DNA of 64,000 bases. Origin: Candidatus Tepidiaquacellales bacterium OLB4/UTCHB1 (GTDB lineage Bacteria > Bacteroidota > Ignavibacteria > Tepidaquicellales > Tepidaquicellaceae). Positions 36,614 to 54,777 of the stretch are shown here, one piece after another. The number at the start of each line of letters is the position of its first letter. Position 1 is the stretch's first letter. Position numbers and translations under genes: made by a program. The notes below the pieces were generated by a model. The model had not been told where the DNA came from. It saw only the letters and a list, made by a program, of their open reading frames with translations, and did no database searches. The stretch is from positions 124,001 through 188,000 of the forward strand of contig MWSW01000019.1 in NCBI GenBank assembly GCA_002050165.1. Reading direction: 5' to 3'.

Positions 36614-37567
36614 TTATCTGAAATCAGTTAAAGTAGCATGAATTTGCTCAAAGTTCATTTTTGATATTGATGAACAAAGGACATCATCTTTGAACCATAT
36701 TGCTGCGTTGCCTTTGCTATGTTTTTGCTGACACGGGAACCAGTTTTCACCTTTATTTAACCTTTCCCGCACCTCGGAAATAAGATATAGCTTGTCCTTT
36801 TCGTTAGGTTTGTCTGTGATCTCATTTCTTTTAGTTTGGAAAGTATAAATAATTGAGTTACCCTTCCGGTGAATAAAGTGAGCGACCGGTACGCCATTAA
36901 TTTCATTAAACACACCGCCTAAAAGCGTTGCATCTTTCACGTCTGGTACATAAACGTTGAAATTACATTTCTTCTCCAACTGGTTCTCAAGTATCTGGGG
37001 ATCATGGGTCTCTATTTGCAGCTTCATTTCACCTTTTTCTATTTTATCAAATATTTCATGTGAAATTGATACAAGGTCTTCATCGTGAGAATTCCCGGAT
37101 TGATTATAAAAGTTAATCAAAAGAAAAATGAAAAGTAAAAATGCAAAGGTACCTGCGAAAGCGTAAAAATATTTTTTTTGTTGTAAACTTGTGCGATAAA
37201 TTTCCGGTTTAATTTCATTGATAAGATTATTAGTCCGTTCGAATACTTTTTGTGACTGGGTCAATTTAAAGTTTCCGGATAGTTGTTTCGAATAAACCCT
37301 GATTCCTTCGTTAATCTTTGCTGCCAACTCCGGTGGTACTGTGACAGAAATTATCCTACGATGAAGTTCATTTTTAATTGCAAGTTCTACCTGATACCGG
37401 TTATATAAATCAATATCGTTATTGATGTCTTTTGAGATTTCATCCTCATTTACGGTATCATCAAATTCTCTATCCACAAAGGATGAGATCTTTTCGTACC
37501 TTGAGTATAACTCATTTCCGTTCCCCTGATCATCCTTGTTGAAAGAACTTGAATTGATTTCAGACAT
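36614..37567 (-). CDS. Transmembrane anti-sigma factor candidate
   Basis: 317 residues with one TM helix (about 133-154). The cytosolic part (1-130) resembles the anti-sigma domain in the segment YEKISSFVDREFDD and in later helices, but it has no HxxxCxxC zinc motif. The exported part (155-317) carries CNFNVYVPDV, GGVFNEINGVPVAHFIHRKGNSIIYTF and two later cysteines (PCQQKH, VLCSS), as in DUF-type anti-sigma C-terminal domains. The call rests mainly on its place directly after the ECF sigma gene (30 bases) and its topology; direct family recognition is weak. Confidence 0.65.
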   Translation of the reverse strand: MSEINSSSFNKDDQGNGNELYSRYEKISSFVDREFDDTVNEDEISKDINNDIDLYNRYQVELAIKNELHRRIISVTVPPELAAKINEGIRVYSKQLSGNFKLTQSQKVFERTNNLINEIKPEIYRTSLQQKKYFYAFAGTFAFLLFIFLLINFYNQSGNSHDEDLVSISHEIFDKIEKGEMKLQIETHDPQILENQLEKKCNFNVYVPDVKDATLLGGVFNEINGVPVAHFIHRKGNSIIYTFQTKRNEITDKPNEKDKLYLISEVRERLNKGENWFPCQQKHSKGNAAIWFKDDVLCSSISKMNFEQIHATLTDFR

Positions 37568-37597
37568 TTTTGTACTGCTTTTGGTTTATGTAAAAAA

Positions 37598-38293
37598 TTA
37601 ATCTAGCGCCTTGGAAATATCATAACCCCTGCTTTTCGCATATTGCAAGAGTTTTTGTTGAAGCAGCTTTCTTCCCCTGTGAAGCCGGCTTCTGACGGTG
37701 CCAATCGGAACTTGAACAAATTCTGCAATTTCTTCGTAACTCAATCCTTCAAGATCACAGAGAATAACCACGGTTTTAAAATCGTCCTGCAATGAATTCA
37801 GCGCAGTGAGAACATCATCGTCGAGTAAATTCGAAAAAAGCTTTTCCTGCAAATCCGTAGAATCAATTCTATCCGACTTAATTGAATCAAAGAAATTCTC
37901 TATATCATCATAATCAACCTTGCCTGGTTCTTTTTGGTTCTTGCGGTATTTGTTTATGAACAAATTTTTCATGATTCGGAACAACCAAGCTTTACAGTTA
38001 GTTCCTTGCTCGAACTTGTCAAAGAACCGGAATGCACGCAAAAAAGTTTCCTGCAAGAGATCGTCCGCATCAAGTTGATTGCCGGTCATCTTGTAAGCAT
38101 AATTATATAGCAGATTCATGTGTGGCAGAGCTTCTCGTTCGAAGTCGATTTTTCGTTGTGTTAACTCTTCATCGGTTAATATCCGGTCATTTTCCTCGAT
38201 CTCATCCTGATCTTCTTCAAGATCATTCCTTTCCCCCGATTCAGCATCGTATTCGACTTTAAGTTCTTCTTTAAGTTCTTCCTTCTTGTTCAT
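37598..38293 (-). CDS. ECF-type RNA polymerase sigma factor
   Basis: 231 residues. After an acidic N-terminal extension of about 45 residues come region 2 (LLYNYAYKMTGNQLDADDLLQETFLRAFRFF, KAWLFRIMKNLFINKYRK) and region 4 (LNSLQDDFKTVVILCDLEGLSYEEIAEFVQVPIGTVRSRLHRGRK), with no region 3, which defines the ECF group. The acidic extension is unusual. It heads an operon with a TM anti-sigma candidate and a TlpA-like lipoprotein, so it may answer an envelope or periplasmic redox signal. tRNA-His lies 90 bases upstream. Confidence 0.9.
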   Translation of the reverse strand: MNKKEELKEELKVEYDAESGERNDLEEDQDEIEENDRILTDEELTQRKIDFEREALPHMNLLYNYAYKMTGNQLDADDLLQETFLRAFRFFDKFEQGTNCKAWLFRIMKNLFINKYRKNQKEPGKVDYDDIENFFDSIKSDRIDSTDLQEKLFSNLLDDDVLTALNSLQDDFKTVVILCDLEGLSYEEIAEFVQVPIGTVRSRLHRGRKLLQQKLLQYAKSRGYDISKALD

Positions 38294-40753: not shown

Positions 40754-40912
40754 AATCAAAATAATTATCCGCAACGATTGATTAATATTAATACGTTCGT
40801 TAAAACCTGAGCTATGCTTTTTAATTTCACCTCGTAGTTTACGTTTACCTAACAAAATTATCAGGTTCTAACTATAATTTAAAATTATTGCAAGTTAAGT
40901 TTGTAAAATCAT

Positions 40913-42475
40913 TTGAGCTCGACGAAACAAATATTGATAATTGATGATGACCCTGTAACCCGCAAGGTTATAAAGCGCGGACTTGAGAAAAATAATTTTA
41001 GGATTTTTGAATCTTCAGGTGCTGATGAGGGTTACACTTTGCTCAGTAAAGAAGACATTGACCTCGTATTGTGTGATGTTGTTATGAACGATATTGATGG
41101 TTACGAATTTTGTACTCTTGTGAGAAAAGAGGATCGGTATAAAGCCTTACCATTTATATTTATCACCTCTAAAAATTCCATTGAAGATAAGACACGCGCT
41201 CTTTACATCGGTGCTGATGATTTTGTCTCAAAGCCTGTTAATTTTGATGAACTCAGCCTTAAAATAAACTCGCTCCTCAAACGCGTCGGGATATACAAAT
41301 TATACAGTGTAAAAGACAACATTGAATCCACGTTTGAAGACGAAGGTGGAAGGGTACTTATTGTTGACGATGATCCGATGATTTCTGCTGTTATTTCTAC
41401 TGCACTTAAGGATCTTAAAATTGACTGTATAAGCGAGACTAATGCTAAAGATTCTTTGAAAATGTTGACGAACACCTTCCCGAAACCGGATTTAATTCTT
41501 TCCGATCTTATGATGCCGGTAATGGATGGTTTCGATTTTAGGAAGAGGTTGCTCGAGGATCCGCTTCTCAAAGATATACCGTTTGTATTTCTTACATCAA
41601 ACGACACTGAAGAAATCATGCTTCAGGGGTTTAACCTTGAAATCAAAGATTTCATAATTAAGACCGAGAAGCCGAAAGTAATTGCAGTGAAGGTTTCAAA
41701 CCTGATTAAAAATATTAAACGTGATAAAAAAAGGGTAATTGAACAGCTGAAGTCAGCGGCTGATTCAATTACTATGGAAGTTGTTCCAAAATCAGCTCCT
41801 CAATTCGATGGATTTAATATTCAACATTGGTATGTCCCGTATAAAGGAACTCCCGGGGGAGACTTTATAGATTACTTTTCAATCAGCGATGATAAGCTGG
41901 CTATCATTCTTGGCGATATAATGGGTAAACAATGGGGTGCATGGTTTTTTGCGTTCGCTTTCATTGGTTATATTCGCAGCTCAATCAGAGTTGTACTTGA
42001 AAACGATTCAGAATTGACTACAGGCGATTTGCTGGCAAAAGTTAACGATAATATTTATAAAGATGCAAAAATTTCCGAAGTTTTCAGCACAGTTTCATGT
42101 ATTATACTGGATAACAAAGAGATGAAGTTTGAATATTCCGGTGCGGGTGATCTCGCTGCTTTTCATTTTATTGCAAATGAAGGGCGTGTTCAGCAATATA
42201 CTTCAAGCGGATTATTGCTTGGTATCTCACCTGAAAATACCTACGATAAAATAGTAACCAGTGTATCCCCGGGTGATATTATTGTGATTTACAGCGATGG
42301 CATTATAGACTCACGCAACAAAAACGGCGAAGCATTCGGCTCGCAAAGAGTTATTGACGTTCTCAAATCCAAAAGTGATTCAGACAAACTTTCACAGTTT
42401 AAAAACGAATTCATAAATTTCACGGGTGGTAATTACGATGACGATATCAGTATCATCGTAATTAAAGTAATATAA
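40913..42475 (+). CDS. Response regulator with two receivers and a PP2C/SpoIIE phosphatase (RsbU-like)
   Basis: 520 residues. Receiver 1 (about 5-125) has the acidic pair in IIDDDPV, phospho-acceptor D in LVLCDVVMND and K in FVSKPVNF. Receiver 2 (about 145-265) has IVDDDPM, LILSDLMMPVMDG and a variant KTEKP in place of the usual KP. A coiled segment leads to a PP2C domain (about 300-520) with PGGDFIDYFSI, ILGDIMGKQW, YSGAGDLAAF, VIYSDGIIDS and NYDDDIS metal aspartates. This architecture dephosphorylates STAS antagonists. The STAS and ATPase partners lie 1.4 kb downstream in the same operon. TTG start at 40913, with no ATG before the receiver strand. Confidence 0.9.
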   Translation: MSSTKQILIIDDDPVTRKVIKRGLEKNNFRIFESSGADEGYTLLSKEDIDLVLCDVVMNDIDGYEFCTLVRKEDRYKALPFIFITSKNSIEDKTRALYIGADDFVSKPVNFDELSLKINSLLKRVGIYKLYSVKDNIESTFEDEGGRVLIVDDDPMISAVISTALKDLKIDCISETNAKDSLKMLTNTFPKPDLILSDLMMPVMDGFDFRKRLLEDPLLKDIPFVFLTSNDTEEIMLQGFNLEIKDFIIKTEKPKVIAVKVSNLIKNIKRDKKRVIEQLKSAADSITMEVVPKSAPQFDGFNIQHWYVPYKGTPGGDFIDYFSISDDKLAIILGDIMGKQWGAWFFAFAFIGYIRSSIRVVLENDSELTTGDLLAKVNDNIYKDAKISEVFSTVSCIILDNKEMKFEYSGAGDLAAFHFIANEGRVQQYTSSGLLLGISPENTYDKIVTSVSPGDIIVIYSDGIIDSRNKNGEAFGSQRVIDVLKSKSDSDKLSQFKNEFINFTGGNYDDDISIIVIKVI

Positions 42476-42481
42476 ATTTAG

Positions 42482-43906
42482 ATGATCACAGTTCTTGAAA
42501 TATCCTTTTGGGTTTTCATCGTTATTATATTTTATTCATACCTCGGATACGGGATATTAATGTCCATAATCACTCGGTCTCAAACGATTATGGATGCCAT
42601 TCCAAAACCGTTTAATTGTAAACCACAGATTTTCGAAACGCAAAATCCGGAAGATTATTTACCTTCGGTAAGCCTTATTATTTCAGCTTCTGGTGAATCA
42701 GAGAGAACCCTAAAAGAAAAAATAGAAAACACATTTCAGCTCAATTACCCAAAGGACAGGATGGAAGTAATTTTTGCGATTGCATACGATACGGCTTCGA
42801 AAGAGGATTCGACACTGCGGGTATTTTATGAAACGTTTCTTAAGGAGCCGACTGAATCCGGTTTCTCCGGTAAAGAAGAAGAACTGTATATTAAATTCCG
42901 GAAGTTTGAAAATATTTCGAAAGATGAGAACAGCCTTGCCGAACTTCAGGTTCAACTTGAGAACAGCGTGTTTACATCCGAGGGGATTACTGAAAATGCA
43001 AAGCAAATGCTGGATGATTTTTTTGGTGGCGAAGAAAATGAGTTTAAGATTAAAATAACGAAAGATATCGAACGAAAAGGGAAAATATCGCAGGTTAACC
43101 GCACAGTTAAAAATGCCGTTGGCGAAATTCTTGTATTCTCAGACGCAAATTCTATGTTTAACCGCGATGCAATAAAAAATCTTGTAAAGCACTTCAGAAA
43201 TTCGGCAGTCGGTTGTGTCGCCGGTGAGAAACGGGTGTTAACGGCTGAAGGGTCAACCAGCGGAGAAGGTGAAGGATTGTACTGGAAATATGAATCGTTT
43301 CTCAAGCGGCTTGATTCAAAGTTATGGACAACTGTGGGTGCTGCAGGTGAAATCTTTGCAGTGAGAAAATTTCTCTGGGGTGATGGAGTTTTGGAAAGTG
43401 CAATAATCGAAGATTTCCTTCTTTCGATGACAATTGCCCAAAATGGTTATCGTGTAATATATGAGCCAAACGCTTATGCCGAAGAAGAGCCGACAAAAGA
43501 AATGTCTGATGAATTCGTCCGGAGGAGACGGATTGCCGCAGGCGGATTTCAGTCGATTGTTTACCTGAAGCCATTGATGAATATATTTAAATACCGGGTT
43601 CTCACATTTCAATATGTGTCTCACCGGGTACTGAGGTGGGCAGTTGTGCCATTTCTACTACCTATTGTATTTGTAATTAATATCATTTTAATTTCAAATA
43701 TCTTTTTTATATTAATGTTCGCATTTCAATTTTGTTTTTATATTTTTGCAATTATAGGGTATGTGTTGGAAAGACGCGGGAAGAAAATTAAAATATTTTA
43801 TTTCCCTTATGTCTTAACTTTGATGAATATAGCCGCATACGCAGGTTTGAAGCGGTACCTTAAAAATGAGCAAAAAGTAACCTGGGAAAGAGTCAAACGA
43901 AACTAA
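42482..43906 (+). CDS. Membrane family 2 glycosyltransferase with an acidic insertion
   Basis: 474 residues. An N-terminal TM (about 5-25) precedes a GT-A domain: LPSVSLIISASGESERTLKEKI, MEVIFAIAYDTASKED, the DxN/DxD-type LVFSDANSMFNRDAI (near 220), VGCVAGEKR, the acceptor acidic motif IIEDFLLSMTI and VRRRRIAAGGFQSI, then three or four C-terminal TM helices (about 375-465). This is the layout of processive or lipid-linked polysaccharide synthases. Between the nucleotide-binding strand and the DxD, about 75 extra acidic, helical residues (roughly 108-185) are present. It lies between the phosphatase and the STAS gene with gaps of 6 and 11 bases. Confidence 0.85.
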   Translation: MITVLEISFWVFIVIIFYSYLGYGILMSIITRSQTIMDAIPKPFNCKPQIFETQNPEDYLPSVSLIISASGESERTLKEKIENTFQLNYPKDRMEVIFAIAYDTASKEDSTLRVFYETFLKEPTESGFSGKEEELYIKFRKFENISKDENSLAELQVQLENSVFTSEGITENAKQMLDDFFGGEENEFKIKITKDIERKGKISQVNRTVKNAVGEILVFSDANSMFNRDAIKNLVKHFRNSAVGCVAGEKRVLTAEGSTSGEGEGLYWKYESFLKRLDSKLWTTVGAAGEIFAVRKFLWGDGVLESAIIEDFLLSMTIAQNGYRVIYEPNAYAEEEPTKEMSDEFVRRRRIAAGGFQSIVYLKPLMNIFKYRVLTFQYVSHRVLRWAVVPFLLPIVFVINIILISNIFFILMFAFQFCFYIFAIIGYVLERRGKKIKIFYFPYVLTLMNIAAYAGLKRYLKNEQKVTWERVKRN

Positions 43907-43917
43907 ATAAAAATATT

Positions 43918-44256
43918 ATGAACTTTTCAATTTCAGATGAAAACGGGATTCATATCCTGAAAGTAAATTTAAAAAGAGCAACGATAGATTATGTAAAAGA
44001 ATTCAGGGAGTTGCTTCTTGATTTGATTGAAACCAAAAATATCAAAAAGATCGTAATAGATCTCTCTGAGGTGGAATTTGTTGACAGTTCATTCCTTGGT
44101 GCTGTAGTCTCAGGTTTGAAGAAGATAGCGGCAAATAAGGGCGATATAAAAATTTCCGGGTTACAATCACCGGTGCGATCTATGTTTGAGATAACGAGAT
44201 TGTATAAAGTCTTTGAGATATTTGATGAAATAGAAGATGCATTAAACAGTTTCTGA
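43918..44256 (+). CDS. STAS-domain anti-sigma factor antagonist
   Basis: 112 residues, a single STAS domain like SpoIIAA/RsbV. NFSISDENGIHILKVNLKRATID, then KKIVIDLSEVEFVDSSFLGAVVSGLKK, where the phosphorylatable serine is in VDSSFLG (near residue 60), and IKISGLQSPVRSMFEITRLYKVFEIFD. In a partner switch the ATPase phosphorylates it and the PP2C protein removes the phosphate; both are encoded next to it. Its stop codon shares a base with the ATG of the ATPase gene, so the two are made in step. Confidence 0.9.
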   Translation: MNFSISDENGIHILKVNLKRATIDYVKEFRELLLDLIETKNIKKIVIDLSEVEFVDSSFLGAVVSGLKKIAANKGDIKISGLQSPVRSMFEITRLYKVFEIFDEIEDALNSF

Positions 44257-44819
44257 TGAAAGTAATTGAATGGGATATAAAGCTCGACTCATTCAATGCA
44301 GATGAGATTGTTAATGATTCCGTGAATTTTTTTCAAAACGGACTTTCATATCTTCCGGATGAATACAGGGAAGGATTTCTAATCGAACTTAAGATAATCA
44401 TCTTTGAAATGCTTACGAACGTTAAAAGCCATGGCGGTGGAAGTTCACTGAAGTTGAAGTATTGTATAGCTGATGACCATGTATCGCTTGAATTTATATC
44501 AGATGGTAACGGGTTCAGACTTCAAAGTCAGCATGATGATATTTTAAAAGATGAAGTAATAACCCCGCCTTTCCCGGATAAATATGTCGGTAAACAAATT
44601 ACAATTTACAAAGGAATTGAAGAAGAATTGAAATGTAATGTTGCCGGGCAAAACAAACTTGAATTTATGATTACCCCCAAAAGTGTATTGCAGACCGCGA
44701 GCGAACTGCACGAGCATTTCGGTCTTCAAATCATTGCGACTGTTTCGGAAAAATTTGAGTATTTTAAAACTACTGACAGCGAAGACATTTTCCTGATTTA
44801 CAAAAAAATCAAAGTCTGA
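44256..44819 (+). CDS. RsbW-like anti-sigma/switch kinase (HATPase fold)
   Basis: 187 residues with the histidine-kinase-type ATPase fold of SpoIIAB/RsbW: N-box in LKIIIFEMLTNVKSHGGG (near 45-60), and the ATP-binding D-x-G-x-G in EFISDGNGF (near 80). The G2 box is altered and about 60 extra C-terminal residues follow, so it is a divergent member. It would phosphorylate the upstream STAS protein and bind a target. No sigma factor is encoded nearby, so the target may be a polysaccharide enzyme instead. ATG at 44256 overlaps the STAS stop. Confidence 0.8.
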   Translation: MKVIEWDIKLDSFNADEIVNDSVNFFQNGLSYLPDEYREGFLIELKIIIFEMLTNVKSHGGGSSLKLKYCIADDHVSLEFISDGNGFRLQSQHDDILKDEVITPPFPDKYVGKQITIYKGIEEELKCNVAGQNKLEFMITPKSVLQTASELHEHFGLQIIATVSEKFEYFKTTDSEDIFLIYKKIKV

Positions 44820-44824
44820 AAGTT

Positions 44825-46552
44825 TTGAAAGCGATTATACTTTCGCCCGGATTAGATGAATCCTTGCTTCCATTTACGTACGACTTCCCGAAGGCGATGA
44901 TGCCTGTTGTAAACAAACCGATATTGTTAATCACTCTTCTTGAATTAAAATCCGCCGGAATCCGGGATGTAAAAATTTGCCTGCACCACCTGCCTGAATT
45001 TGTTGACAATTATTTTAAAGACGGAAGTAATATTGGACTAAATATTTCCTACTCAATTGAAAAAGAATTCAGAGGTAGCGGTAATTCACTTTTCAGAATT
45101 AAAAGTTTCATTACTGACTCGATTATTTATATCAGCGGTGAATGTATCTCAAATATAGATTTTCAAAACCTTGCTGATTATCACCGTTCGCATAATGCAA
45201 TCGCGACACTTGTAACCTCAAATGATACCTTGCGTGAGCTCAATGTTAAAGAAGGTTTACTTGACTTGAATGCTTACGATAAAATAATGAATGAAAATTT
45301 ATTTTATGACATTTTAATCATCGAGCGTGCCGGTGTTGACCAAGTCAGGAAGGAAGACGGATATAAATTAAAAAATCATCTGATCCCGGATATGCTACAA
45401 ACTGGGTTACCGGTCTATGTTAAAGGTTATGATTCATATTACAGTGAACTCAAATCAATTGATGAGTATCATGATTTGAACATGAAGACGGTAAAGGGAG
45501 AAATTATATTTCCTGCAATTAAACTCAATCCGGAAAAGAATTCTTCAGGTGCATTGATCCTTAAAGGGAAAAATTCAAAGGTTAGTAGTTCGGTAAAATA
45601 TGATGGTTGTGTTATTATTGGCGAAGAAGTATATATTGATGAAGGTGCCGAGCTCTCAAATTGCGTTATATTAAACAATACATACATTGGTAAAAGAGTT
45701 GAAATTAAAAACTCCGTTAATTATCACCAGTACCATTACAATGCGGAAATTAAATACACTACACTGATAGAAGATCCTGCTTTGTTCAGGACCTATCATG
45801 TAGTACCATTTAAGGTAAGATTAGATTCGTGGTTGATTAACTCTACTGACCGGATAGTGTCTTTCTTTGCATTGTTGATGCTTATGCCGGTATTCATAAT
45901 TGTTGCGTTGCTAATTAAGATAGATTCGAAAGGTCCGGTGTTTTATATTTCAAAACGATTACGTTCTCCGGAAATTTCCAAAAAGGGAAGTGAGTGGTAT
46001 ATATACATGAAGGAGAAGCCGATTAAATATTATGTGTTCAGGACAATGTACATTGACTCAGATAATCGGATACAAGAGCTCACTAATAAATATGAAACCG
46101 GTCCGTTCAGGAAAATTGAAAATGATCCACGTGTAACAAAAATTGGCAGGATACTCAGGAAAACTTCGATTGACGAGCTTCCGTTATTATGGAATGTCCT
46201 CAAAGGTCAGATGAGCCTTGTCGGGATTTGGGCGCTTCCAACTTATGAAGCGGAGGACCTTCTTCACAAGGGGCTGAAACTGGATGAAGGCGATCTTGAT
46301 CTTTCCGAAGTTGCAAAAGTCAGATTTCGGGGTAAACTTGGATTGGCGGGGCTATGGCAGGCGAGGGGGCGGTCAGATCTTACAGCCGAAGAACGTGCGC
46401 TTCACGATACTATGCAATCTGTTATGCAAAATATCAATCTCCGGGATGAAAAATACCTTGGAGAATATAGTGAGTTTAAAACTTATAAAGGGTATCTTAA
46501 AATGCTCTTCGAAACCTTTAAATCGGTAGTACTGAGAAAAGGTGCAATCTGA
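44825..46552 (+). CDS. Nucleotidyltransferase-like / left-handed helix / phosphoglycosyl transferase fusion
   Basis: 575 residues. Residues 1-240 follow the sugar nucleotidyltransferase fold (FPKAMMPVVNKPILLITL), but the P-loop-like GxGTR is replaced (SPGLDESLLPF) and the usual GD metal motif reads SGECIS. Residues about 255-315 have hexapeptide-like repeats (YDGCVIIGEEVYIDEGAELSNCVI). Residues 335-560 are a WcaJ/WbaP-type polyprenyl-phosphate sugar transferase: membrane helix, SKGPVFYISKRL, VFRTM, DPRVTKIGRILRKTSIDELPLLWNVLKGQMSLVG, with the catalytic D-E pair. It likely starts the repeat unit on the lipid carrier. TTG start at 44825, five bases after the ATPase gene. Confidence 0.85.
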   Translation: MKAIILSPGLDESLLPFTYDFPKAMMPVVNKPILLITLLELKSAGIRDVKICLHHLPEFVDNYFKDGSNIGLNISYSIEKEFRGSGNSLFRIKSFITDSIIYISGECISNIDFQNLADYHRSHNAIATLVTSNDTLRELNVKEGLLDLNAYDKIMNENLFYDILIIERAGVDQVRKEDGYKLKNHLIPDMLQTGLPVYVKGYDSYYSELKSIDEYHDLNMKTVKGEIIFPAIKLNPEKNSSGALILKGKNSKVSSSVKYDGCVIIGEEVYIDEGAELSNCVILNNTYIGKRVEIKNSVNYHQYHYNAEIKYTTLIEDPALFRTYHVVPFKVRLDSWLINSTDRIVSFFALLMLMPVFIIVALLIKIDSKGPVFYISKRLRSPEISKKGSEWYIYMKEKPIKYYVFRTMYIDSDNRIQELTNKYETGPFRKIENDPRVTKIGRILRKTSIDELPLLWNVLKGQMSLVGIWALPTYEAEDLLHKGLKLDEGDLDLSEVAKVRFRGKLGLAGLWQARGRSDLTAEERALHDTMQSVMQNINLRDEKYLGEYSEFKTYKGYLKMLFETFKSVVLRKGAI

Positions 46553-46564
46553 AAAATACCATCT

Positions 46565-47428
46565 ATGAAAGGAATAATACTGGCTGGCGGTTCCGGAACC
46601 AGAATGTATCCGGTATCTAAAATATACAGCAAACAACTTACACTCATATACGATAAACCACTCATTTATTTCCCCCTCTCAATATTAATGCTCGGTGGAA
46701 TCAGGGAGATTCTGATTATCTCTAATGCACAAACTATTCCACTTTATAAAATCCTTTTCGGTGACGGATCTCACCTTGGTTTAAACATTCAGTATAAAGA
46801 ACAACCTGCTCCCAACGGCATTGCTGAGTCGTTTATTCTGGGTGAAGAATTTATTGGTAGTGATGATGTAACATTGATACTTGGTGATAACATTTTCTAC
46901 GGGGATCTTAATTTCTTTTACAACGCTTTAAAGAAAAATTCCGGTGCAACGATTTTCGGGTATAAGGTTAATGACCCGCAGCGGTATGGTATAGTTGAGT
47001 TCGATGACGATGGTAAAGCAATTTCGATTGAAGAAAAACCATCGAAACCTAAATCGGATTTTGCTGTGCCGGGATTATACGTTTATAATAACGAAGTAGT
47101 AAATATCTCAAAGAATTTAAAGCCATCACCGCGGGGGGAACTCGAGATTACAGATGTAAACAAAGTGTACATGAGCCGTGACAAACTTAAAGTTGAAAGA
47201 ATCGGGCGTGGAGTTGCGTGGCTGGATACCGGAACACCAGATGCCCTGTTGCAGGCCTCAAACTTCTTTGGGGTTATTGAAGCGAGGCAAGGTTTGAAAG
47301 TCGCATGCATTGAAGAAATTGCCTATCTGAGAAATTTTATTGATAAGCAACAGTTACAAAATGTTATTGACGGTTTACCACGATCGCTTTACAGGGAATA
47401 TCTTGAAAAGTTTATAAAAGATATTTGA
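46565..47428 (+). CDS. rmlA: Glucose-1-phosphate thymidylyltransferase
   Basis: 287 residues, the normal length for RmlA/RfbA. It makes dTDP-glucose from glucose-1-phosphate and dTTP, the first step of dTDP-rhamnose and related sugars. The active-site GGSGTRMYP (8-16), KQLTLIYDKPLIYFPLS, LGDNIFYGD (metal aspartate near 110), EEKPSKPKSDFAVPGLYVY and WLDTGTPDALLQAS are intact, in contrast to the degenerate paralogous domain in the preceding fusion. It is followed after three bases by rmlC; rmlB and rmlD are not in the window. Confidence 0.95.
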   Translation: MKGIILAGGSGTRMYPVSKIYSKQLTLIYDKPLIYFPLSILMLGGIREILIISNAQTIPLYKILFGDGSHLGLNIQYKEQPAPNGIAESFILGEEFIGSDDVTLILGDNIFYGDLNFFYNALKKNSGATIFGYKVNDPQRYGIVEFDDDGKAISIEEKPSKPKSDFAVPGLYVYNNEVVNISKNLKPSPRGELEITDVNKVYMSRDKLKVERIGRGVAWLDTGTPDALLQASNFFGVIEARQGLKVACIEEIAYLRNFIDKQQLQNVIDGLPRSLYREYLEKFIKDI

Positions 47429-47431
47429 GTA

Positions 47432-47980
47432 ATGAAAGTTTCTACAACTCCTATTAGTGGATTATTAGTTATTGAACCTGATGTGTTCCATGATGATCGC
47501 GGATATTTCTTTGAGTCGTTTAATTCCAAAAAATACCACGAAGCAGGATTGGATTTTAACTTTGTTCAGGATAATATTTCACGTTCGGTTAAAAATTCCA
47601 TTCGCGGATTACACTATCAGGTCGGGAATTTCGCTCAGGGTAAACTATGTCAGGTCATTTCCGGAGTAGTCCTTGATGTTGCGGTTGATATCCGTTTTGG
47701 TTCACCTACGTTCGGTAAATATCATTCTCAAGTATTGTCAGAGGAAAATAAAAAACAGTTCTGGCTTCCTCCTGGATTCGCACATGGGTTTTCTGTTCTT
47801 TCTGATATCGCAATTTTCTCATATAAATGTACATCTTTTTACAGTAAGAAAGATGAACGTTGTATTTATTTCAATGACGAACAACTTGGGATTGATTGGG
47901 GTATTAAAAACCCGGTGATATCCGAGAAAGATAAATACGGTATCGCTTTTAAAGATATTGAAAGTGATTTTAAATTCTGA
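47432..47980 (+). CDS. rmlC: dTDP-4-dehydrorhamnose 3,5-epimerase
   Basis: 182 residues with the RmlC cupin. GLLVIEPDVFHDDRGYFFESF, FVQDNISRSVKNSIRGLHYQ with the catalytic histidine (near 62), GKLCQVISGVVLDVAVDIR with the aspartate, and FWLPPGFAHGFSVLSD are all present. It epimerises dTDP-4-keto-6-deoxyglucose at C3 and C5. Its partners RmlB and RmlD must be encoded elsewhere. Three bases separate it from rmlA and nine from glgP. Confidence 0.95.
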   Translation: MKVSTTPISGLLVIEPDVFHDDRGYFFESFNSKKYHEAGLDFNFVQDNISRSVKNSIRGLHYQVGNFAQGKLCQVISGVVLDVAVDIRFGSPTFGKYHSQVLSEENKKQFWLPPGFAHGFSVLSDIAIFSYKCTSFYSKKDERCIYFNDEQLGIDWGIKNPVISEKDKYGIAFKDIESDFKF

Positions 47981-47989
47981 CTATTTGGT

Positions 47990-50476
47990 ATGTCAATCAA
48001 ACAAAATGAAAATATCGGGACGTCAATTTTTTTCACAGATGAACCCGGTGTGGATAAGTACAATCTCCCTGAGAGGTTTGCTGAATATCTTGAGTATAAT
48101 CTTGTAAAGGATAAAACCAGCATAAGAGAACAGGATGCCTATAAAGCGCTTTCGCTTTCAATCCGAGACAGATTAATCAGGAACTGGTTACGCACACAAT
48201 ATAATTACACTCAAAACGCTGTAAAGAAAGTTTATTATTTGTCGCTCGAATTCCTCATGGGAAGGCTACTAGGAAACGCGCTTGTCAATCTCGATTTTTA
48301 CAATGAATGTTATTCTATAATGAAGAAGCTAGGTTATGTACTTGAGGATGTCAGGGAATTTGAAAACGATATGGGTCTTGGCAATGGCGGACTGGGAAGA
48401 CTGGCTGCATGTTTCATTGACTCACTTTCAACACTTGAGTTTCCTGCATACGGATATGGTATCAGGTATGAATACGGTATTTTTAAGCAGGAGATTGACA
48501 ATGGGTATCAACACGAACTGCCGGATAACTGGATTCAATACGGTAATCCGTGGGAAATTATCAGACCGGAAGTATGCTATAAAGTCAGGTTTAAAGGGAA
48601 AGTCATCTCGAAACGGAAACCCAACGGGAGTTGGAAATTCAAATGGGTTGATACCGAAGAAATACTTGCTGTTGCTTTTGATGTACCGGTTCCGGGTTAC
48701 AAAAATAATACCGTAAATAACCTTCGGCTATGGAAGGCAAGTGCTACCAATGATTTTAACTTTGCGTCCTTCAATCAGGGGGATTATCTTTCAGCAGTTG
48801 AGCAAAAGAATAATTCGGAGATAATTTCGAAGGTTCTTTATCCAAATGATTCATTTTACGCCGGGAAAGTGTTACGCCTCAAGCAACAGTATTTCTTTGT
48901 TTCCGCTACAATCCAGGATATTATAAGAAACTACAAAACGCTTCACAAAAATTTTAAAGAATTTTCAGAGAAAACTTCGATACAACTGAACGAAACTCAC
49001 CCTGCAATCGGAATCCCGGAACTTATGAGAATACTTATTGATGAGGAAGGAATCGGATGGGATGAGGCGTGGGAAATTACCAGGAACACATTTTCATACA
49101 CAAATCACACTATCGTTCCTGAAGCACTTGAAGAATGGCCGGTTGAAATGTTTGAAGAATTGTTTCCAAGACATTTGCAGATTATTTACGAAATCAATCA
49201 TCGATTCTTGCAGTCTGTCATTGAGCATCCGGGTTCTGATGAAAATATTGAAGCTTTATCCATTATCCGTGAGACCGATGTCAGGAGCATCAGAATGTCA
49301 AACCTTGCAATTATCGGAAGTCACAAGGTTAACGGAGTAGCAAAGTTACACTCTGACATTTTGAAGCATTCAATCTTTAAACACTTTTACGATATCTTCC
49401 CTGAAAAATTTATCAACATTACAAATGGTATAACTCAGCGCCGGTGGCTGTTGAGCGCAAATCCACTGCTCGCCGGAATTATCTCTGATAAGATCGGTAC
49501 CGGTTGGATAACTAATCTTGCCGAACTGAAGGAAATTGAAAAATATATTGAAGATGAATCATTCCGCGATAATTGGAAAAATGTGAAGTGGATAAATAAG
49601 AAAAATCTGATAGCGTATATAGAATCATTGCATAATATAAAAATCAATCCGAACTCACTATTTGATGTTCAAATAAAAAGATTCCACGAATACAAACGAC
49701 AGTTGCTGAACATTTTGAATGTCATTTCAATGTACATCGGCATTAAAGATAATCCTGACAGAAAATTCACTCCGAGGACTGTTATTTTCGGTGGGAAAGC
49801 TGCGCCATCTTATACAATGGCAAAACTTATTATAAAACTGATTAACTCGGTTTCAGAGGTTATAAACAGCGATCCTGTAATCGGAAATAAACTTAAAGTA
49901 ATTTTTATAAAAAACTATTCCGTTTCTCTGGCTGAAAAAATTATTCCTGCGAGCGAACTTTCGGTACAAATCTCGACCGCAGGTTATGAAGCATCCGGTA
50001 CGGGGAATATGAAGTTTGCTCTTAACGGTGCATTGACGGTTGGAACGCTTGACGGAGCAAATATTGAAATGGCAGAAGAGATTGGACGTGAACACATGTT
50101 TATTTTCGGTAAGACGGCTGATGAAGTTGCTTCAATGAAATCCGGTGGATATACTCCGTATGAATATTACCTCAACGATGAGCTCATCAAACGAGTAATT
50201 GATTTGATTAAGTTTGATTATTTCAACCGAAATGAACCCGGGATATTTAAACCAATTGCAGATGAACTGTTATATAATGATAAATATCTTGTGCTTGCAG
50301 ATTTCAGAGCGTTCAATGAGATTCAACGTGAGATAAGTGAAGCTTATAATGATCAGGAAATGTGGACTGTGAAGTCTATTTTGAATGTGTCAAGAATCGG
50401 AAAATTTTCAAGCGACAGAGCAATTAAAGAATACGCTGCAAAAGTCTGGAATATAAAACCAATTTCTAAATCTTAA
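47990..50476 (+). CDS. glgP: Glycogen/maltodextrin phosphorylase
   Basis: 828 residues, the standard GlgP length. It releases glucose-1-phosphate from alpha-1,4-glucan with PLP. Motifs: KKVYYLSLEFLMGRLLGNAL, GLGNGGLGRLAACF, RYEYGIFKQ, NETHPAIGIPELMRIL, NITNGITQRRWL, KRFHEYKRQLLN and EASGTGNMKFALNGALTVGTLDGANIEM with the PLP lysine (near 674). Its position inside the exopolysaccharide operon, nine bases after rmlC and nine before ugd, is notable because its product is the substrate of RmlA and, through UDP-glucose, of Ugd. Confidence 0.95.
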   Translation: MSIKQNENIGTSIFFTDEPGVDKYNLPERFAEYLEYNLVKDKTSIREQDAYKALSLSIRDRLIRNWLRTQYNYTQNAVKKVYYLSLEFLMGRLLGNALVNLDFYNECYSIMKKLGYVLEDVREFENDMGLGNGGLGRLAACFIDSLSTLEFPAYGYGIRYEYGIFKQEIDNGYQHELPDNWIQYGNPWEIIRPEVCYKVRFKGKVISKRKPNGSWKFKWVDTEEILAVAFDVPVPGYKNNTVNNLRLWKASATNDFNFASFNQGDYLSAVEQKNNSEIISKVLYPNDSFYAGKVLRLKQQYFFVSATIQDIIRNYKTLHKNFKEFSEKTSIQLNETHPAIGIPELMRILIDEEGIGWDEAWEITRNTFSYTNHTIVPEALEEWPVEMFEELFPRHLQIIYEINHRFLQSVIEHPGSDENIEALSIIRETDVRSIRMSNLAIIGSHKVNGVAKLHSDILKHSIFKHFYDIFPEKFINITNGITQRRWLLSANPLLAGIISDKIGTGWITNLAELKEIEKYIEDESFRDNWKNVKWINKKNLIAYIESLHNIKINPNSLFDVQIKRFHEYKRQLLNILNVISMYIGIKDNPDRKFTPRTVIFGGKAAPSYTMAKLIIKLINSVSEVINSDPVIGNKLKVIFIKNYSVSLAEKIIPASELSVQISTAGYEASGTGNMKFALNGALTVGTLDGANIEMAEEIGREHMFIFGKTADEVASMKSGGYTPYEYYLNDELIKRVIDLIKFDYFNRNEPGIFKPIADELLYNDKYLVLADFRAFNEIQREISEAYNDQEMWTVKSILNVSRIGKFSSDRAIKEYAAKVWNIKPISKS

Positions 50477-50485
50477 ATTAATATA

Positions 50486-51814
50486 ATGAACATTTCAATA
50501 ATCGGAACCGGTTATGTCGGATTAGTCTCCGGGACTTGTTTTGCTGAAATGGGTAACAATGTTATCTGCGTTGATAATAACCCAGATAAACTGTCCAAAC
50601 TCAGAAACGCACAGGTAACAATTTATGAACCGGGACTTGAGCTAATTTTCCAAAGGAGCATTGAAAAAAGTAGGTTATCATTCACCGATGACCTTAAATC
50701 CGCTGTAGAGAAAAGTGACGTCATCTTTCTTTGCTTACCCACCCCGCAAGGTGAAGACGGATCTGCAGACCTTAAATATGTTTTGGGTGTGGCGGATAAT
50801 ATAGGTGCAATTCTCAAAGCGAACAGTGATAAGGAATTTAAAATTATTGTAAATAAAAGTACCGTACCGGTTGGGACAGCACAGAAAGTTAGCAATGAAA
50901 TTTCAAAGCACGGAGTAAATAATTTTGATGTTGTTTCAAATCCAGAATTCTTGCGTGAGGGATTCGCTGTTGAAGATTTTATGAAACCGGATAGAATTGT
51001 AATTGGTGCATCGAATGAAAATTCATTCAAAACAATGAGGAGGATTTACGAACCATTCGTGAGACAAGGTAATCCTATACTTGAGATGGATACAGCGAGC
51101 GCAGAGGTTACAAAGTATGCTGCAAATTCTTACCTTGCAATGAGGATAACTTATATGAATCAGCTTGCAAATTATTGTGAGAAAGCAGGTGCGAATATTG
51201 ACCTTGTCAGGCGAGGAATGGGGACAGATAACCGGATTGGAAGGAGGTTTCTGTTCGCAGGAATAGGATATGGTGGGTCTTGTTTCCCGAAGGATGTGAA
51301 TGCCCTTATCAAGACTTCAATTGAGTCTGAATCTGAAATGACACTTTTGTCTGAAGTTAATCGCGTGAACAAACTTCAGAAATTAGTTCTTGTAACGAAA
51401 GTTCTAGACTATTATAAAGGTGATATTGATGGAAAAACCTTCGGCGTGTGGGGGCTTGCATTCAAACCCAATACGGATGATATGCGCGAAGCCCCATCAG
51501 TTGTGATTATTAATGAAATATTAAAATACGGTGCGAAGGTTAAAGCATACGATCCCGCAGCAATGGAAGCAGCAAGGTTCGATCTTAAGGATACAATTGA
51601 GTATTGCCCGGATGAATTTGCAGCTCTCGAAGGTTCCGATGCTTTACTGATTTTCACAGAATGGAATGAATTCAGAAATCCACCGCTTGCAGAAATCAAA
51701 AGTAAAATTAAAGATAACGTAATCTTTGATGGCAGGAACCTCTTTACTCCGGAGCAGATGAAACAACACGGTATAAATTATTTTAGCATTGGAAGGAAAC
51801 CCGTACTAATTTGA
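50486..51814 (+). CDS. ugd: UDP-glucose 6-dehydrogenase
   Basis: 442 residues; oxidises UDP-glucose to UDP-glucuronate with two NAD. N-terminal GTGYVGLVSGTCFAEMG, FLCLPTPQGEDGSADL, NKSTVPVGTA, SNPEFLREGFAVEDFMKPDRIVIG, and the catalytic cysteine in GIGYGGSCFPKD (near 265) are clear. The product is the substrate of the UDP-glucuronate decarboxylase encoded at 62033-62968. The last four bases overlap the start of the TolC-like gene (TTGA). Confidence 0.95.
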   Translation: MNISIIGTGYVGLVSGTCFAEMGNNVICVDNNPDKLSKLRNAQVTIYEPGLELIFQRSIEKSRLSFTDDLKSAVEKSDVIFLCLPTPQGEDGSADLKYVLGVADNIGAILKANSDKEFKIIVNKSTVPVGTAQKVSNEISKHGVNNFDVVSNPEFLREGFAVEDFMKPDRIVIGASNENSFKTMRRIYEPFVRQGNPILEMDTASAEVTKYAANSYLAMRITYMNQLANYCEKAGANIDLVRRGMGTDNRIGRRFLFAGIGYGGSCFPKDVNALIKTSIESESEMTLLSEVNRVNKLQKLVLVTKVLDYYKGDIDGKTFGVWGLAFKPNTDDMREAPSVVIINEILKYGAKVKAYDPAAMEAARFDLKDTIEYCPDEFAALEGSDALLIFTEWNEFRNPPLAEIKSKIKDNVIFDGRNLFTPEQMKQHGINYFSIGRKPVLI

Positions 51815-52527
51815 AAATGTCAATCGGACAAATATCAATTATTTTTTTAATACTGTTGACCGGATTTTGTTCTGCACAGGACTATCAATACGAAGACGAT
51901 CCCTTAGCTGAATTGCTCTACGATTCTAATCTTGTTAATAAGTTGTTCGATATAGCCTGGAGAAATTATCCTGAAGGGAGAATCTGGGAAAGCCGGCTTG
52001 AAATAGCAGAATTGCAAAAGGGTAATGAAACATGGTCATGGCTCAATGCATTGAGCTTCAATTATATTTACTATCCTGATTTTCTGAATGCGCAGACTGA
52101 GCCGGGTACACAATCGAATTTCAGCAGGTTCGGTATAGGTTTGTCTGTTAATCTCGGCACTGTCTTGTCAGTTCCTAACAGGGTTGCGCAGGCAACAGAA
52201 AATATTAAAATTGCAGAGAGGAATATTGAGCTTCAGAAACTCAATATTAAATTTGAGGTGAGCCGGAGGTATTATTATTATATACAACAGAAGAGGCTAC
52301 TGATCTCAAGATTAAAAAGTTTGGAAGACGATCGCAACGGATTGTCCTTGGCGAAATATAAGTACGATCGCGGAGAACTTTCACTTGATTTTTACAATCA
52401 GGCATTGACCCAATATAATGTAAGCAAAGAGCGCGTTTATGAAACCGAATCGAACCTTGCAGTTGCGAAAGCAAGTATTGAGGAATTACTTGGTGTTAAA
52501 CTCGAAACAATCGAAGGTGCATTTTAA
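51811..52527 (+). CDS. Short TolC-like periplasmic/outer-membrane protein
   Basis: 238 residues. A signal peptide (MSIGQISIIFLILLTGFCSAQ) is followed by a TolC-family-like helical part: NIKIAERNIELQKLNIKFEVSRRYYYYIQQKRLLISRLKSLEDDRNGLSLAKYKYDRGELSLDFYNQAL and LAVAKASIEELLGV. Normal TolC proteins are about 400-450 residues with two such repeats; here there is only one. It may act as an accessory to the Wzz/kinase gene that starts immediately after its stop. The frame starts at TTG 51811 overlapping the ugd stop; ATG 51817, two codons later, is an alternative. Confidence 0.7.
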   Translation: MKMSIGQISIIFLILLTGFCSAQDYQYEDDPLAELLYDSNLVNKLFDIAWRNYPEGRIWESRLEIAELQKGNETWSWLNALSFNYIYYPDFLNAQTEPGTQSNFSRFGIGLSVNLGTVLSVPNRVAQATENIKIAERNIELQKLNIKFEVSRRYYYYIQQKRLLISRLKSLEDDRNGLSLAKYKYDRGELSLDFYNQALTQYNVSKERVYETESNLAVAKASIEELLGVKLETIEGAF

Positions 52528-54777
52528 ATGGATTTAGTTTCTCTAATACGGATATTACTGAAACGCAAATATTTACTGATCGGGATACCGCTGATTGTAG
52601 GAATACTAACTTTTTTTCTCGTCAGAAATCTTCCAGATGTTTTTAAAGCAGAGGCGGAAATTTCAACCGGAATTACAGAAAGCTCGAAGATTACGCTCGG
52701 TTCTGAAACATCAAGTTCTCAATTTTCTGAAATCCAGCAAAAGTTCAGCAACATTATTGAGCTGATGAAATCAAAAAAACTTATGGATAAGCTGTCTTAT
52801 CAGATAATGTTGCACGATATACAGAATTCCGTACCGTTCCGCAAGCCAACACCTGAATTCCAGAAATTAAAAAATGAATCGAAAGGGCAATTAGAGGCGC
52901 TCCTCAAAAACAAGTCTGATTCGCTTATGTATCTTGACCTTAGCGATCCGTTCCAGAAAGAATTATTTGATGCAATTGAAAGTATGAAATATGATGATCA
53001 CAATGTTCAGAAAAATCTGAAAGTAAACAGGATTGAGGATAGTGATTTTATCCGTGTAACTTTTGAATCTGAGAATCCATACCTGTCTGCTTTTGTGGTG
53101 AATGCAATATGCAGGAATTTTATAGACTATTACGAAGATATGACTCAAATGCGAACCGGCGAAACTGAGAAATTTTTTGCGCGTCTGGCATCTGAAAAAA
53201 AACGGGAGTTGGATGAAAAGGTTGAAAAGCTGAAACAGTACAAAATTCAGAATAAGGTTATTAACCTCGGACAACAAACCGAAAATCTTGAAATCCTTAA
53301 AAAAGATGTAGCGCTGATGAGGGAAGGTGTAAACCAAAAAATCCCGTCATTGCGTTCAGCGATCAACGAAATTGATAAGATGCTTTCGCCCGAAGAACGA
53401 AAATATATTGAATCAAACCTCGAACCGATAAATAACAGAATCTCTGATTTGAAAGAGAGACTAAAAAATCTTAATGAACTCCTGATCATGTCCGGCGATC
53501 GTAACGAGTCAATCAAGGATTCCATCCGGTTGTTGAAATCTGAGATTGATCGTGAAATAAAAATTTCATCGGATGAATATTTATACAACCCGAACGTTAT
53601 CAAGCAGGATCTCGTCCAGAAAAGGATTAGTTACGAACTAGAGCTTGAGATTGCCGAACAGAGCGTCCGCTCAATTGATAGAGAAATCGCCAGGATCAAT
53701 CAAATATTTGAGTCTTACACCCCTTTAGACGCGACGATACAGGCATACGAGCGTGACATCGAGGTTGCTGCAAATGCATATTTGGTAATTTTATCAAAAT
53801 TGAATGAAGCAACGTTTTTTTCATCGCTCGGTGTGAATATCGAGCAAATACAATTCGGGCAACCGGGATTACCTGAACCTTCGAAAAAAATTATTTACCT
53901 GCTGCTGGCTATTGCCGTTAGTTTTACAATGACTGTTGTAGCAATTTTTGTAATTGAGTATCTCGATCAGACAGTAAAAACACCATCGAAGTTTGTAAAG
54001 CTAACAGGATTACCTTTAATGGGTTGTTTGAATAAACTTGAGATAAGATCTCTTGACTTGCGGAAACTATTTTCAGGCACATTACCCGGACTTGAAGCAG
54101 AAATTTTCAGAGAGCTTTTAAGGACAATCAGATTTGAAATTGAAACTAAAACTCGTGGAAGTAAATGTTTGCTTATTACAAGCACGGATTCGGGGACCGG
54201 TAAAACTATTTTTACAATTAGTCTCGCATATTCGTTGGGTCTGTCAGCAAAGAAAATTTTACTCATTGATTCAAACTTTCAGGATAATGCGTTGACACGA
54301 AGTTTCAATGCATCTACAACCCTGGAAGAATATGTCAGAGGCGAAATATTATTTGAGGATGCAGTATCATCAACCTCGTTGGAGAAAGTTGATGTAATCG
54401 GATGTATGGGTGGGAACAATACCCCGGATGAAGTTGCCGGTCCGGATGCGATAGTGGAGAAAATTCGAGAATCAGCGTCGGATTACGATATAGTGTTGAT
54501 AGAAGGTGCAGCACTAAATAAATATTCTACCTCGAAGGAATTGATTAAAGCTGTTGAGAAGATAGTTTGTATTTTCGACGCGGGTAAAGTTATTGATCTT
54601 CCTGATAAGAACTCAATTCAGTTTTTGCTTGAACAAGAGGACAAATTCATCGGGAGCATATTGAACAAAGTTGATATTGATAACCTTGAAGAGGTTTACG
54701 GCGAAGTAGTCAAGAGCAGAACTGCCGCACGGAAGTTTTCAAAGAGGATTCTCCGTGGCAATTTTTCAAAGAATTAA
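52528..54777 (+). CDS. Wzz-type chain-length regulator fused to a BY-kinase-like ATPase
   Basis: 749 residues. The N-terminal Wzz domain has a TM at about 14-32, a long periplasmic coiled-coil region (about 35-445) and a second TM near 452-475. The cytosolic C-terminal domain is CpsD/CapB-like: Walker A STDSGTGKT (near 551), Walker A' ILLIDSN and Walker B-like DIVLIEGA. The usual C-terminal tyrosine cluster is missing; the tail is basic (RKFSKRILRGNFSKN). It would set chain length of the polymer made by the Wzy protein; kinase activity is doubtful. ATG directly follows the preceding stop codon. Confidence 0.85.
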   Translation: MDLVSLIRILLKRKYLLIGIPLIVGILTFFLVRNLPDVFKAEAEISTGITESSKITLGSETSSSQFSEIQQKFSNIIELMKSKKLMDKLSYQIMLHDIQNSVPFRKPTPEFQKLKNESKGQLEALLKNKSDSLMYLDLSDPFQKELFDAIESMKYDDHNVQKNLKVNRIEDSDFIRVTFESENPYLSAFVVNAICRNFIDYYEDMTQMRTGETEKFFARLASEKKRELDEKVEKLKQYKIQNKVINLGQQTENLEILKKDVALMREGVNQKIPSLRSAINEIDKMLSPEERKYIESNLEPINNRISDLKERLKNLNELLIMSGDRNESIKDSIRLLKSEIDREIKISSDEYLYNPNVIKQDLVQKRISYELELEIAEQSVRSIDREIARINQIFESYTPLDATIQAYERDIEVAANAYLVILSKLNEATFFSSLGVNIEQIQFGQPGLPEPSKKIIYLLLAIAVSFTMTVVAIFVIEYLDQTVKTPSKFVKLTGLPLMGCLNKLEIRSLDLRKLFSGTLPGLEAEIFRELLRTIRFEIETKTRGSKCLLITSTDSGTGKTIFTISLAYSLGLSAKKILLIDSNFQDNALTRSFNASTTLEEYVRGEILFEDAVSSTSLEKVDVIGCMGGNNTPDEVAGPDAIVEKIRESASDYDIVLIEGAALNKYSTSKELIKAVEKIVCIFDAGKVIDLPDKNSIQFLLEQEDKFIGSILNKVDIDNLEEVYGEVVKSRTAARKFSKRILRGNFSKN

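Follow-up and report, generated by a model that had tools for sequence, protein, structure and literature searches.

A putative sigma-factor-independent partner switch within a polysaccharide operon of Ignavibacteria

We analyzed a 64,000-nucleotide stretch of contig MWSW01000019.1 (hereafter the window) and found a run of four same-strand open reading frames (ORFs; 40913-44819) that encode the parts of a partner-switching module: a PP2C phosphatase with two receiver domains (REC-REC-PP2C), a GT2-type membrane glycosyltransferase (GT), a STAS protein, and a divergent protein with an RsbW-like predicted fold, which we call HATP. The four ORFs are separated by 6, 11, and -1 bases, and only 5 bases separate HATP from the next gene, which encodes a fusion of a nucleotidyltransferase to a polyprenyl sugar-phosphate transferase (NTP-PGT). 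A previous reading of this DNA from sequence alone (the sequence-only reading) had described the four ORFs as one run, and the ORF list and Pfam matches agree with it in positions, strand, and close spacing. We propose, with moderate confidence, that the module is a partner switch that regulates how active the polysaccharide machinery is, independently of a sigma factor. Its direct target would be an adjoining enzyme, most likely the NTP-PGT fusion or the GT.

We found that the order of these genes is conserved. In a survey of the class (294 genomes), the NTP-PGT fusion, counted at E <= 1e-50, was present in 15 genomes, and these are the genomes that carry the module. STAS, or STAS plus HATP, was directly upstream of the fusion in all 15. 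The GT was directly upstream of STAS in all 14 loci that could be assessed; the contig in the other genome (G071) stops at this point. The phosphatase gene adjoined the unit wherever the flanks were read. HATP was found between STAS and NTP-PGT in 8 of the 15 loci and was absent from the other 7. The constant unit is therefore GT-STAS-(NTP-PGT) with PP2C, and the ATPase is optional. HATP relatives are located in the module in seven genomes of the same family, six of which keep GT-STAS-HATP-(NTP-PGT); PP2C is visible upstream in five of these, and the sixth locus is truncated where its contig begins. Among loci that carry organism names, the nearest come from metagenome-assembled genomes of Ignavibacteria. 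The same order recurs at median module-protein identities of 30-65%, which argues that it is not due to chance. Conservation of the order in relatives, on which the sequence-only reading had made its proposal depend, is thus borne out.

The phosphatase and the STAS protein appear to have the residues needed for a sigma-releasing type of switch. The SpoIIE (PP2C) domain scored 106.6 bits with Pfam, and its metal-binding residues (D317, D335, D462, D510, and D511) were invariant in seven homologues. Also invariant in these were the phospho-acceptor aspartates of the receivers (D55 and D198) and the lysines K107 and K250. That both receivers retain the phospho-acceptor agrees with the two-receiver signal input suggested previously. 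The STAS protein matched Pfam STAS (59.4 bits) and TIGR00377 (60.9 bits; cut-off 53.45), and its phosphosite motif, with a potentially phosphorylatable Ser/Thr, was DSS or DST in every family member aligned.

HATP was recognized from its predicted structure. Its score against Pfam HATPase_c_2 (13.8 bits) was below the cut-off (27.4), and an NCBIfam profile search gave no match to the protein. With sequence profiles nearly blind, we assigned HATP as RsbW-like because its AlphaFold model (pLDDT 87, pTM 0.85) best matched SpoIIAB and RsbW (Foldseek target TM 0.63-0.74). Comparisons using VIA gave Z 13.6 and 3.7 A over 129 residues with SpoIIAB (1thn), and Z 13.3 and 1.9 A over 104 residues with RsbW (6m36). 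The model is consistent with the RsbW/SpoIIAB fold and has a predicted lid region that is larger than in those proteins and structured, with three predicted strands. HATP is the most divergent of the five module proteins (median pairwise identity of 30% versus 47-65% for the other four). We considered and rejected a chance ORF, as HATP has relatives and a confidently predicted SpoIIAB-like fold.

It is doubtful that HATP binds ATP or is an active kinase. The N-box Glu and Asn were retained in all 14 HATP relatives aligned. However, the G1-box Asp, a near-universal adenine contact in this ATPase superfamily, was replaced in all 14, mostly by Ser or Thr, and the position of the first G2 glycine in HATP is His, judged by eye. 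Taken together, the N-box, G1 Asp, and G2 glycines do not look like those of an active serine kinase, and HATP is possibly a pseudokinase. A natural STAS-HATP fusion (309 amino acids; L090:8184-9113, minus strand) is encoded in genome G198, away from polysaccharide genes. This fusion argues that the STAS and HATP families act together.

We looked for a sigma factor on which the module could act. The genome of the window is 99% complete and encodes nine proteins with Sigma70 region 2 (Sigma70_r2). Judged by length and sequence, one is RpoD-type (284 amino acids) and eight are of the size of extracytoplasmic function (ECF) factors; no sigmaB/sigmaF-type factor was seen among the nine or in the locus. 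The sequence-only reading stated that no sigma factor is encoded here. This is correct for the module itself, and the genome shows no factor of the sigmaB/sigmaF type, but an ECF sigma factor is encoded nearby on the opposite strand (37598-38293). We rejected this factor as a conserved partner: none of the Ignavibacteria module loci compared contains it, and no sigma gene of any kind was found in those loci. On the minus strand (36614-38293), the ECF gene is followed by a gene for a 317-amino acid, single-TM-like protein with no Pfam match, perhaps an anti-sigma factor.

A diguanylate cyclase target was also rejected. No GGDEF protein was found in the window's genome, and this excludes a target of the type regulated by SiaC, HsbA, and BgrV (discussed below). 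The genome does encode four strong sigma-54 activator domains, which leave room for a transcriptional target. It also contains a second, ordinary-looking STAS-HATPase-PP2C cluster (G000:C8:62879-66839; L002, L238, and L245) with no adjoining sigma factor. At G000:C8:100802-102383 (L231 and L241), a PP2C gene immediately precedes the gene for a response regulator of the sigma-54 activator type, with no STAS gene between them.

In the switch that we infer, for its binding and phosphorylation steps and the identity of its target alike, histidine kinases encoded elsewhere would phosphorylate the PP2C protein on one receiver or on both. The phosphatase would dephosphorylate STAS at the Ser/Thr of DS(S/T)F, as is known for these families. 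Unphosphorylated STAS would bind, and then switch on or license, the NTP-PGT fusion (44825), the membrane GT (42482), or both. In the opposite state, the RsbW-fold protein would bind STAS and withhold it, acting as a weak kinase or, because the G1 Asp is lost, as a pseudokinase that does no more than sequester STAS. STAS is more likely than the ATPase to be the effector, as in SypA and SiaC, because HATP is absent from 7 of the 15 core loci and its G1 Asp is lost everywhere, and STAS, GT, and NTP-PGT stay together. The same two properties of HATP argue against the ATPase as the part that holds the target, the role it was given in the sequence-only reading. The local target that was suggested there we judge probable, with the order conserved and no sigmaB/sigmaF-type factor seen in the genome.

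The GT of the module is a long form. After the first nucleotide-binding strands and ahead of the RKGK motif, long GTs carry an insert of ~75 residues (residues ~109-188) at the place where TDGSTD is usual in short homologues; the insert was not found in homologues outside the long form. In an AlphaFold2 model of the GT (pLDDT 82), the insert is predicted to be helical, with low to middling confidence (blocks of 10 residues averaging 48-79). The long form was also found in G238 and G198 (class-wide search) and at L098, L101, and L126 (genome scan). STAS comes directly after the GT in 11 of the 12 loci with a long GT, and HATP follows STAS in 10; PP2C is just upstream in all 11 loci that could be assessed. 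The locus in G198 is PP2C-GT-STAS-(NTP-PGT) without HATP; the HATP of this genome is fused to another STAS elsewhere, as described above. Short GTs occur with STAS-(NTP-PGT) and without HATP in family f12, at L102, and in a Bacteroidetes locus (L105/L177). Long GTs form one clade (support 100/99), so their association with HATP represents one evolutionary event and is only a hint. For this reason we did not accept the insert as proof of HATP docking. A fuller version of our proposal, in which STAS directly switches NTP-PGT or the GT2 enzyme without a sigma factor or cyclic di-GMP (c-di-GMP) and an RsbW-fold pseudokinase docks on the clade-specific helical insert of the GT, is offered only tentatively.

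The nucleotidyltransferase domain of the window's NTP-PGT (44825-45230) has lost the GxGxR signature (SPGLDESLLPFT), which relatives retain (e.g., AAGIGSRLVPLT). At L102, the Lys of PKP is lost instead. In some lineages, this domain may lack catalytic activity or act as a sensor.

Several loci count against a local target for STAS. The seventh same-family genome (G015) has PP2C-STAS-HATP with no GT between, and neither a GT nor an NTP-PGT match turned up anywhere in it. G172 and G224 carry STAS-HATP without nearby polysaccharide genes, and L101 has PP2C and a long GT with no adjoining STAS. In addition, many STAS-PP2C relatives in the class follow a sigma-54 activator, so the STAS family can serve another target. 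The module might then act on transcription by way of RpoD, an ECF sigma factor, or a sigma-54 activator encoded at another locus, with its position in the operon serving only for co-expression. In many class members, homologous STAS-PP2C pairs do follow a histidine kinase and sigma-54 activators of the NtrC type, and the genome has the four activator domains and eight ECF-size factors to draw on. We nonetheless consider transcriptional control unlikely, as Ignavibacteria loci of the window's type have neither an NtrC gene nor a sigma gene alongside the module, and STAS stays with GT and NTP-PGT even in reshuffled operons. SpoIIAB/RsbW-type proteins bind sigmaF/sigmaB-type factors, and no such factor was seen in the genome for the RsbW-type protein.

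Two further explanations differ in what they make of the neighboring enzymes. The sequence-only reading had the ATPase itself clamping the GT or NTP-PGT, with STAS merely pulling the ATPase off, as in the classic sigma switch. The near confinement of the long GT to genomes with the HATP family (11 of 12 loci; adjacent in 10 and elsewhere in G198) would fit such a clamp, as would the short GTs beside STAS in family f12, which have no adjacent HATP. However, the evidence from the long GTs is weak because they form a single clade. In 7 of the 15 loci the STAS-GT-NTP-PGT set is retained without HATP, and HATP evolves fastest of the five proteins, unlike a protein constrained by two partners. We regard the clamp as quite improbable. 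It is likewise quite improbable, in our judgment, that there is no local target at all and that a general stress or signaling switch was carried into the polysaccharide operon and retained by co-inheritance. Adjacency alone does not prove interaction, and the window-type modules were probably co-inherited within the class. Against this, the exact order has been retained despite the divergence of the proteins, and in three distinct regions of the GT tree STAS is still flanked by the same pair of enzymes.

Searches with STAS across the phylum and class indicated where the module may have come from. The class commonly contains related STAS-PP2C pairs that follow a REC-sigma54-activator gene, with no polysaccharide genes near; a PAS histidine kinase was also upstream in the loci read out. 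Operons of histidine kinase (HK), NtrC sigma-54 activator, STAS, and REC-(REC)-PP2C, with no RsbW-type kinase adjoining, were seen at L223-L229, L179-L204, and L218-L222. Like the module, these operons (type II) have a related PP2C and a STAS that is ~41-52% identical to that of the window; unlike the module, they are associated with a sigma-54 activator and have no GT, NTP-PGT, or HATP. An Ignavibacteria locus, L102, is intermediate (HK-REC-NtrC-GT-STAS-(NTP-PGT)-PP2C). The phosphatase of this locus clusters with the PP2C proteins of the GT-free type II operons (support 98/100). This fits an origin in which GT and NTP-PGT came to be placed on the two sides of the STAS gene. The Bacteroidetes locus L105 has GT-STAS-(NTP-PGT)-PP2C together with a REC-HATPase whose D-N-G and GGRGI motifs are intact, which suggests that a normal kinase can serve this STAS.

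Several known or proposed partner switches with targets other than sigma factors govern biofilm or polysaccharide. The module resembles these and, by the tests made, is a member of none; its arrangement is not as unprecedented as the sequence-only reading implied. The syp locus of Vibrio fischeri, like the module, has a STAS protein and a PP2C regulator (SypA and SypE) inside a polysaccharide locus with no sigma factor. SypE, through SypA, acts below syp transcription (PMC3610818), and the target of SypA, the STAS protein of a polysaccharide locus that has been studied best, is still called unknown (PMC10120452). SypE joins HATPase, REC, and PP2C in one protein, whereas the module has separate genes, a phosphatase with two receivers, a kinase that may be weak or dead, and STAS between GT and NTP-PGT. 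SiaABCD of Pseudomonas aeruginosa also combines a PP2C, a GHKL kinase, and a STAS-like protein, and unphosphorylated SiaC directly activates SiaD (PMC8457831). The structure of SiaB was among the better fold matches to the HATP model (Z 10.7, 3.2 A, 130 residues). However, SiaC is a DUF1987 protein rather than Pfam STAS, and SiaD is a diguanylate cyclase. In BgrUVW-BgrR (Sinorhizobium meliloti mixed-linkage glucan) and HsbA-HsbD (P. aeruginosa), the STAS protein regulates an enzyme and not a sigma factor, as we propose for the module, but BgrV and HsbA regulate diguanylate cyclases (PMC8457831), and both systems act via c-di-GMP. HmpV of Nostoc (HmpUVW) has been suggested to bind an unknown target. 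RsbU/RsbV/RsbW and SpoIIE/SpoIIAA/SpoIIAB of Bacillus share with the module a PP2C, a STAS protein, and an RsbW-fold protein, with the same folds and phosphosite motif. They differ from it in holding sigmaB or sigmaF, of which none was seen here, and the module's kinase has lost the G1 Asp. An open literature search, incomplete in coverage, found no report of the module's arrangement.

The genes downstream of the module (Table 1), together with further glycosyltransferases and Wzy, bear out the polysaccharide setting described previously. The phosphorylase gene is at the same place in the operon in G006 and is absent from it in G003, G005, G013, and G017. A promoter scan found a 10/12 match at 40849-40878, just 5' of the module. 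Such matches barely exceeded those in shuffled sequences and were given no weight.

Table 1. The module and neighboring genes in the window
Feature	Position	Strand	Basis and remarks
REC-REC-PP2C phosphatase (SpoIIE/RsbU type), first module gene	40913..42475	+	520 aa; Pfam Response_reg x2 and SpoIIE
Membrane GT2-type glycosyltransferase with helical insert of ~75 aa (residues ~109-188)	42482..43906	+	474 aa; Pfam GT2 families
STAS protein (SpoIIAA/RsbV type) with DS(S/T)F phosphosite motif; probable effector	43918..44256	+	112 aa; Pfam STAS, TIGR00377
Divergent RsbW/SpoIIAB-fold protein (HATP); possible pseudokinase	44256..44819	+	187 aa; Foldseek and VIA structure matches, alignment of 14 relatives
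NTP-PGT fusion: nucleotidyltransferase, left-handed beta-helix, polyprenyl sugar-phosphate transferase (priming enzyme); candidate target	44825..46552	+	Pfam NTP_transferase, Bac_transf
RmlA-like sugar nucleotidyltransferase	46565..47428	+	Pfam NTP_transferase, 220.6 bits; order same in relatives
RmlC-like dTDP-sugar epimerase	47432..47980	+	Pfam dTDP_sugar_isom
Glycogen/carbohydrate phosphorylase, inside polysaccharide operon	47990-50476		
UDP-sugar dehydrogenase	50486..51814	+	Pfam UDPG_MGDP_dh domains
Outer-membrane OEP-family protein	51811-52527	+	Pfam OEP; kept downstream of module in relatives
Wzz/tyrosine-kinase-like chain-length protein	52528-54777	+	Pfam Wzz, CbiA/AAA_31; kept downstream of module

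The STAS gene sits between the same two enzymes in every NTP-PGT genome where the contig shows it, and the genome of the window has no GGDEF protein and no visible sigmaB/F-type partner. This narrows the candidates for the target of STAS to two or three proteins and opens the question to direct testing. If our proposal is correct, polymer output would be gated at the level of the enzyme by a phospho-switch, in which an RsbW-fold protein perhaps functions although its ATP site is abnormal.

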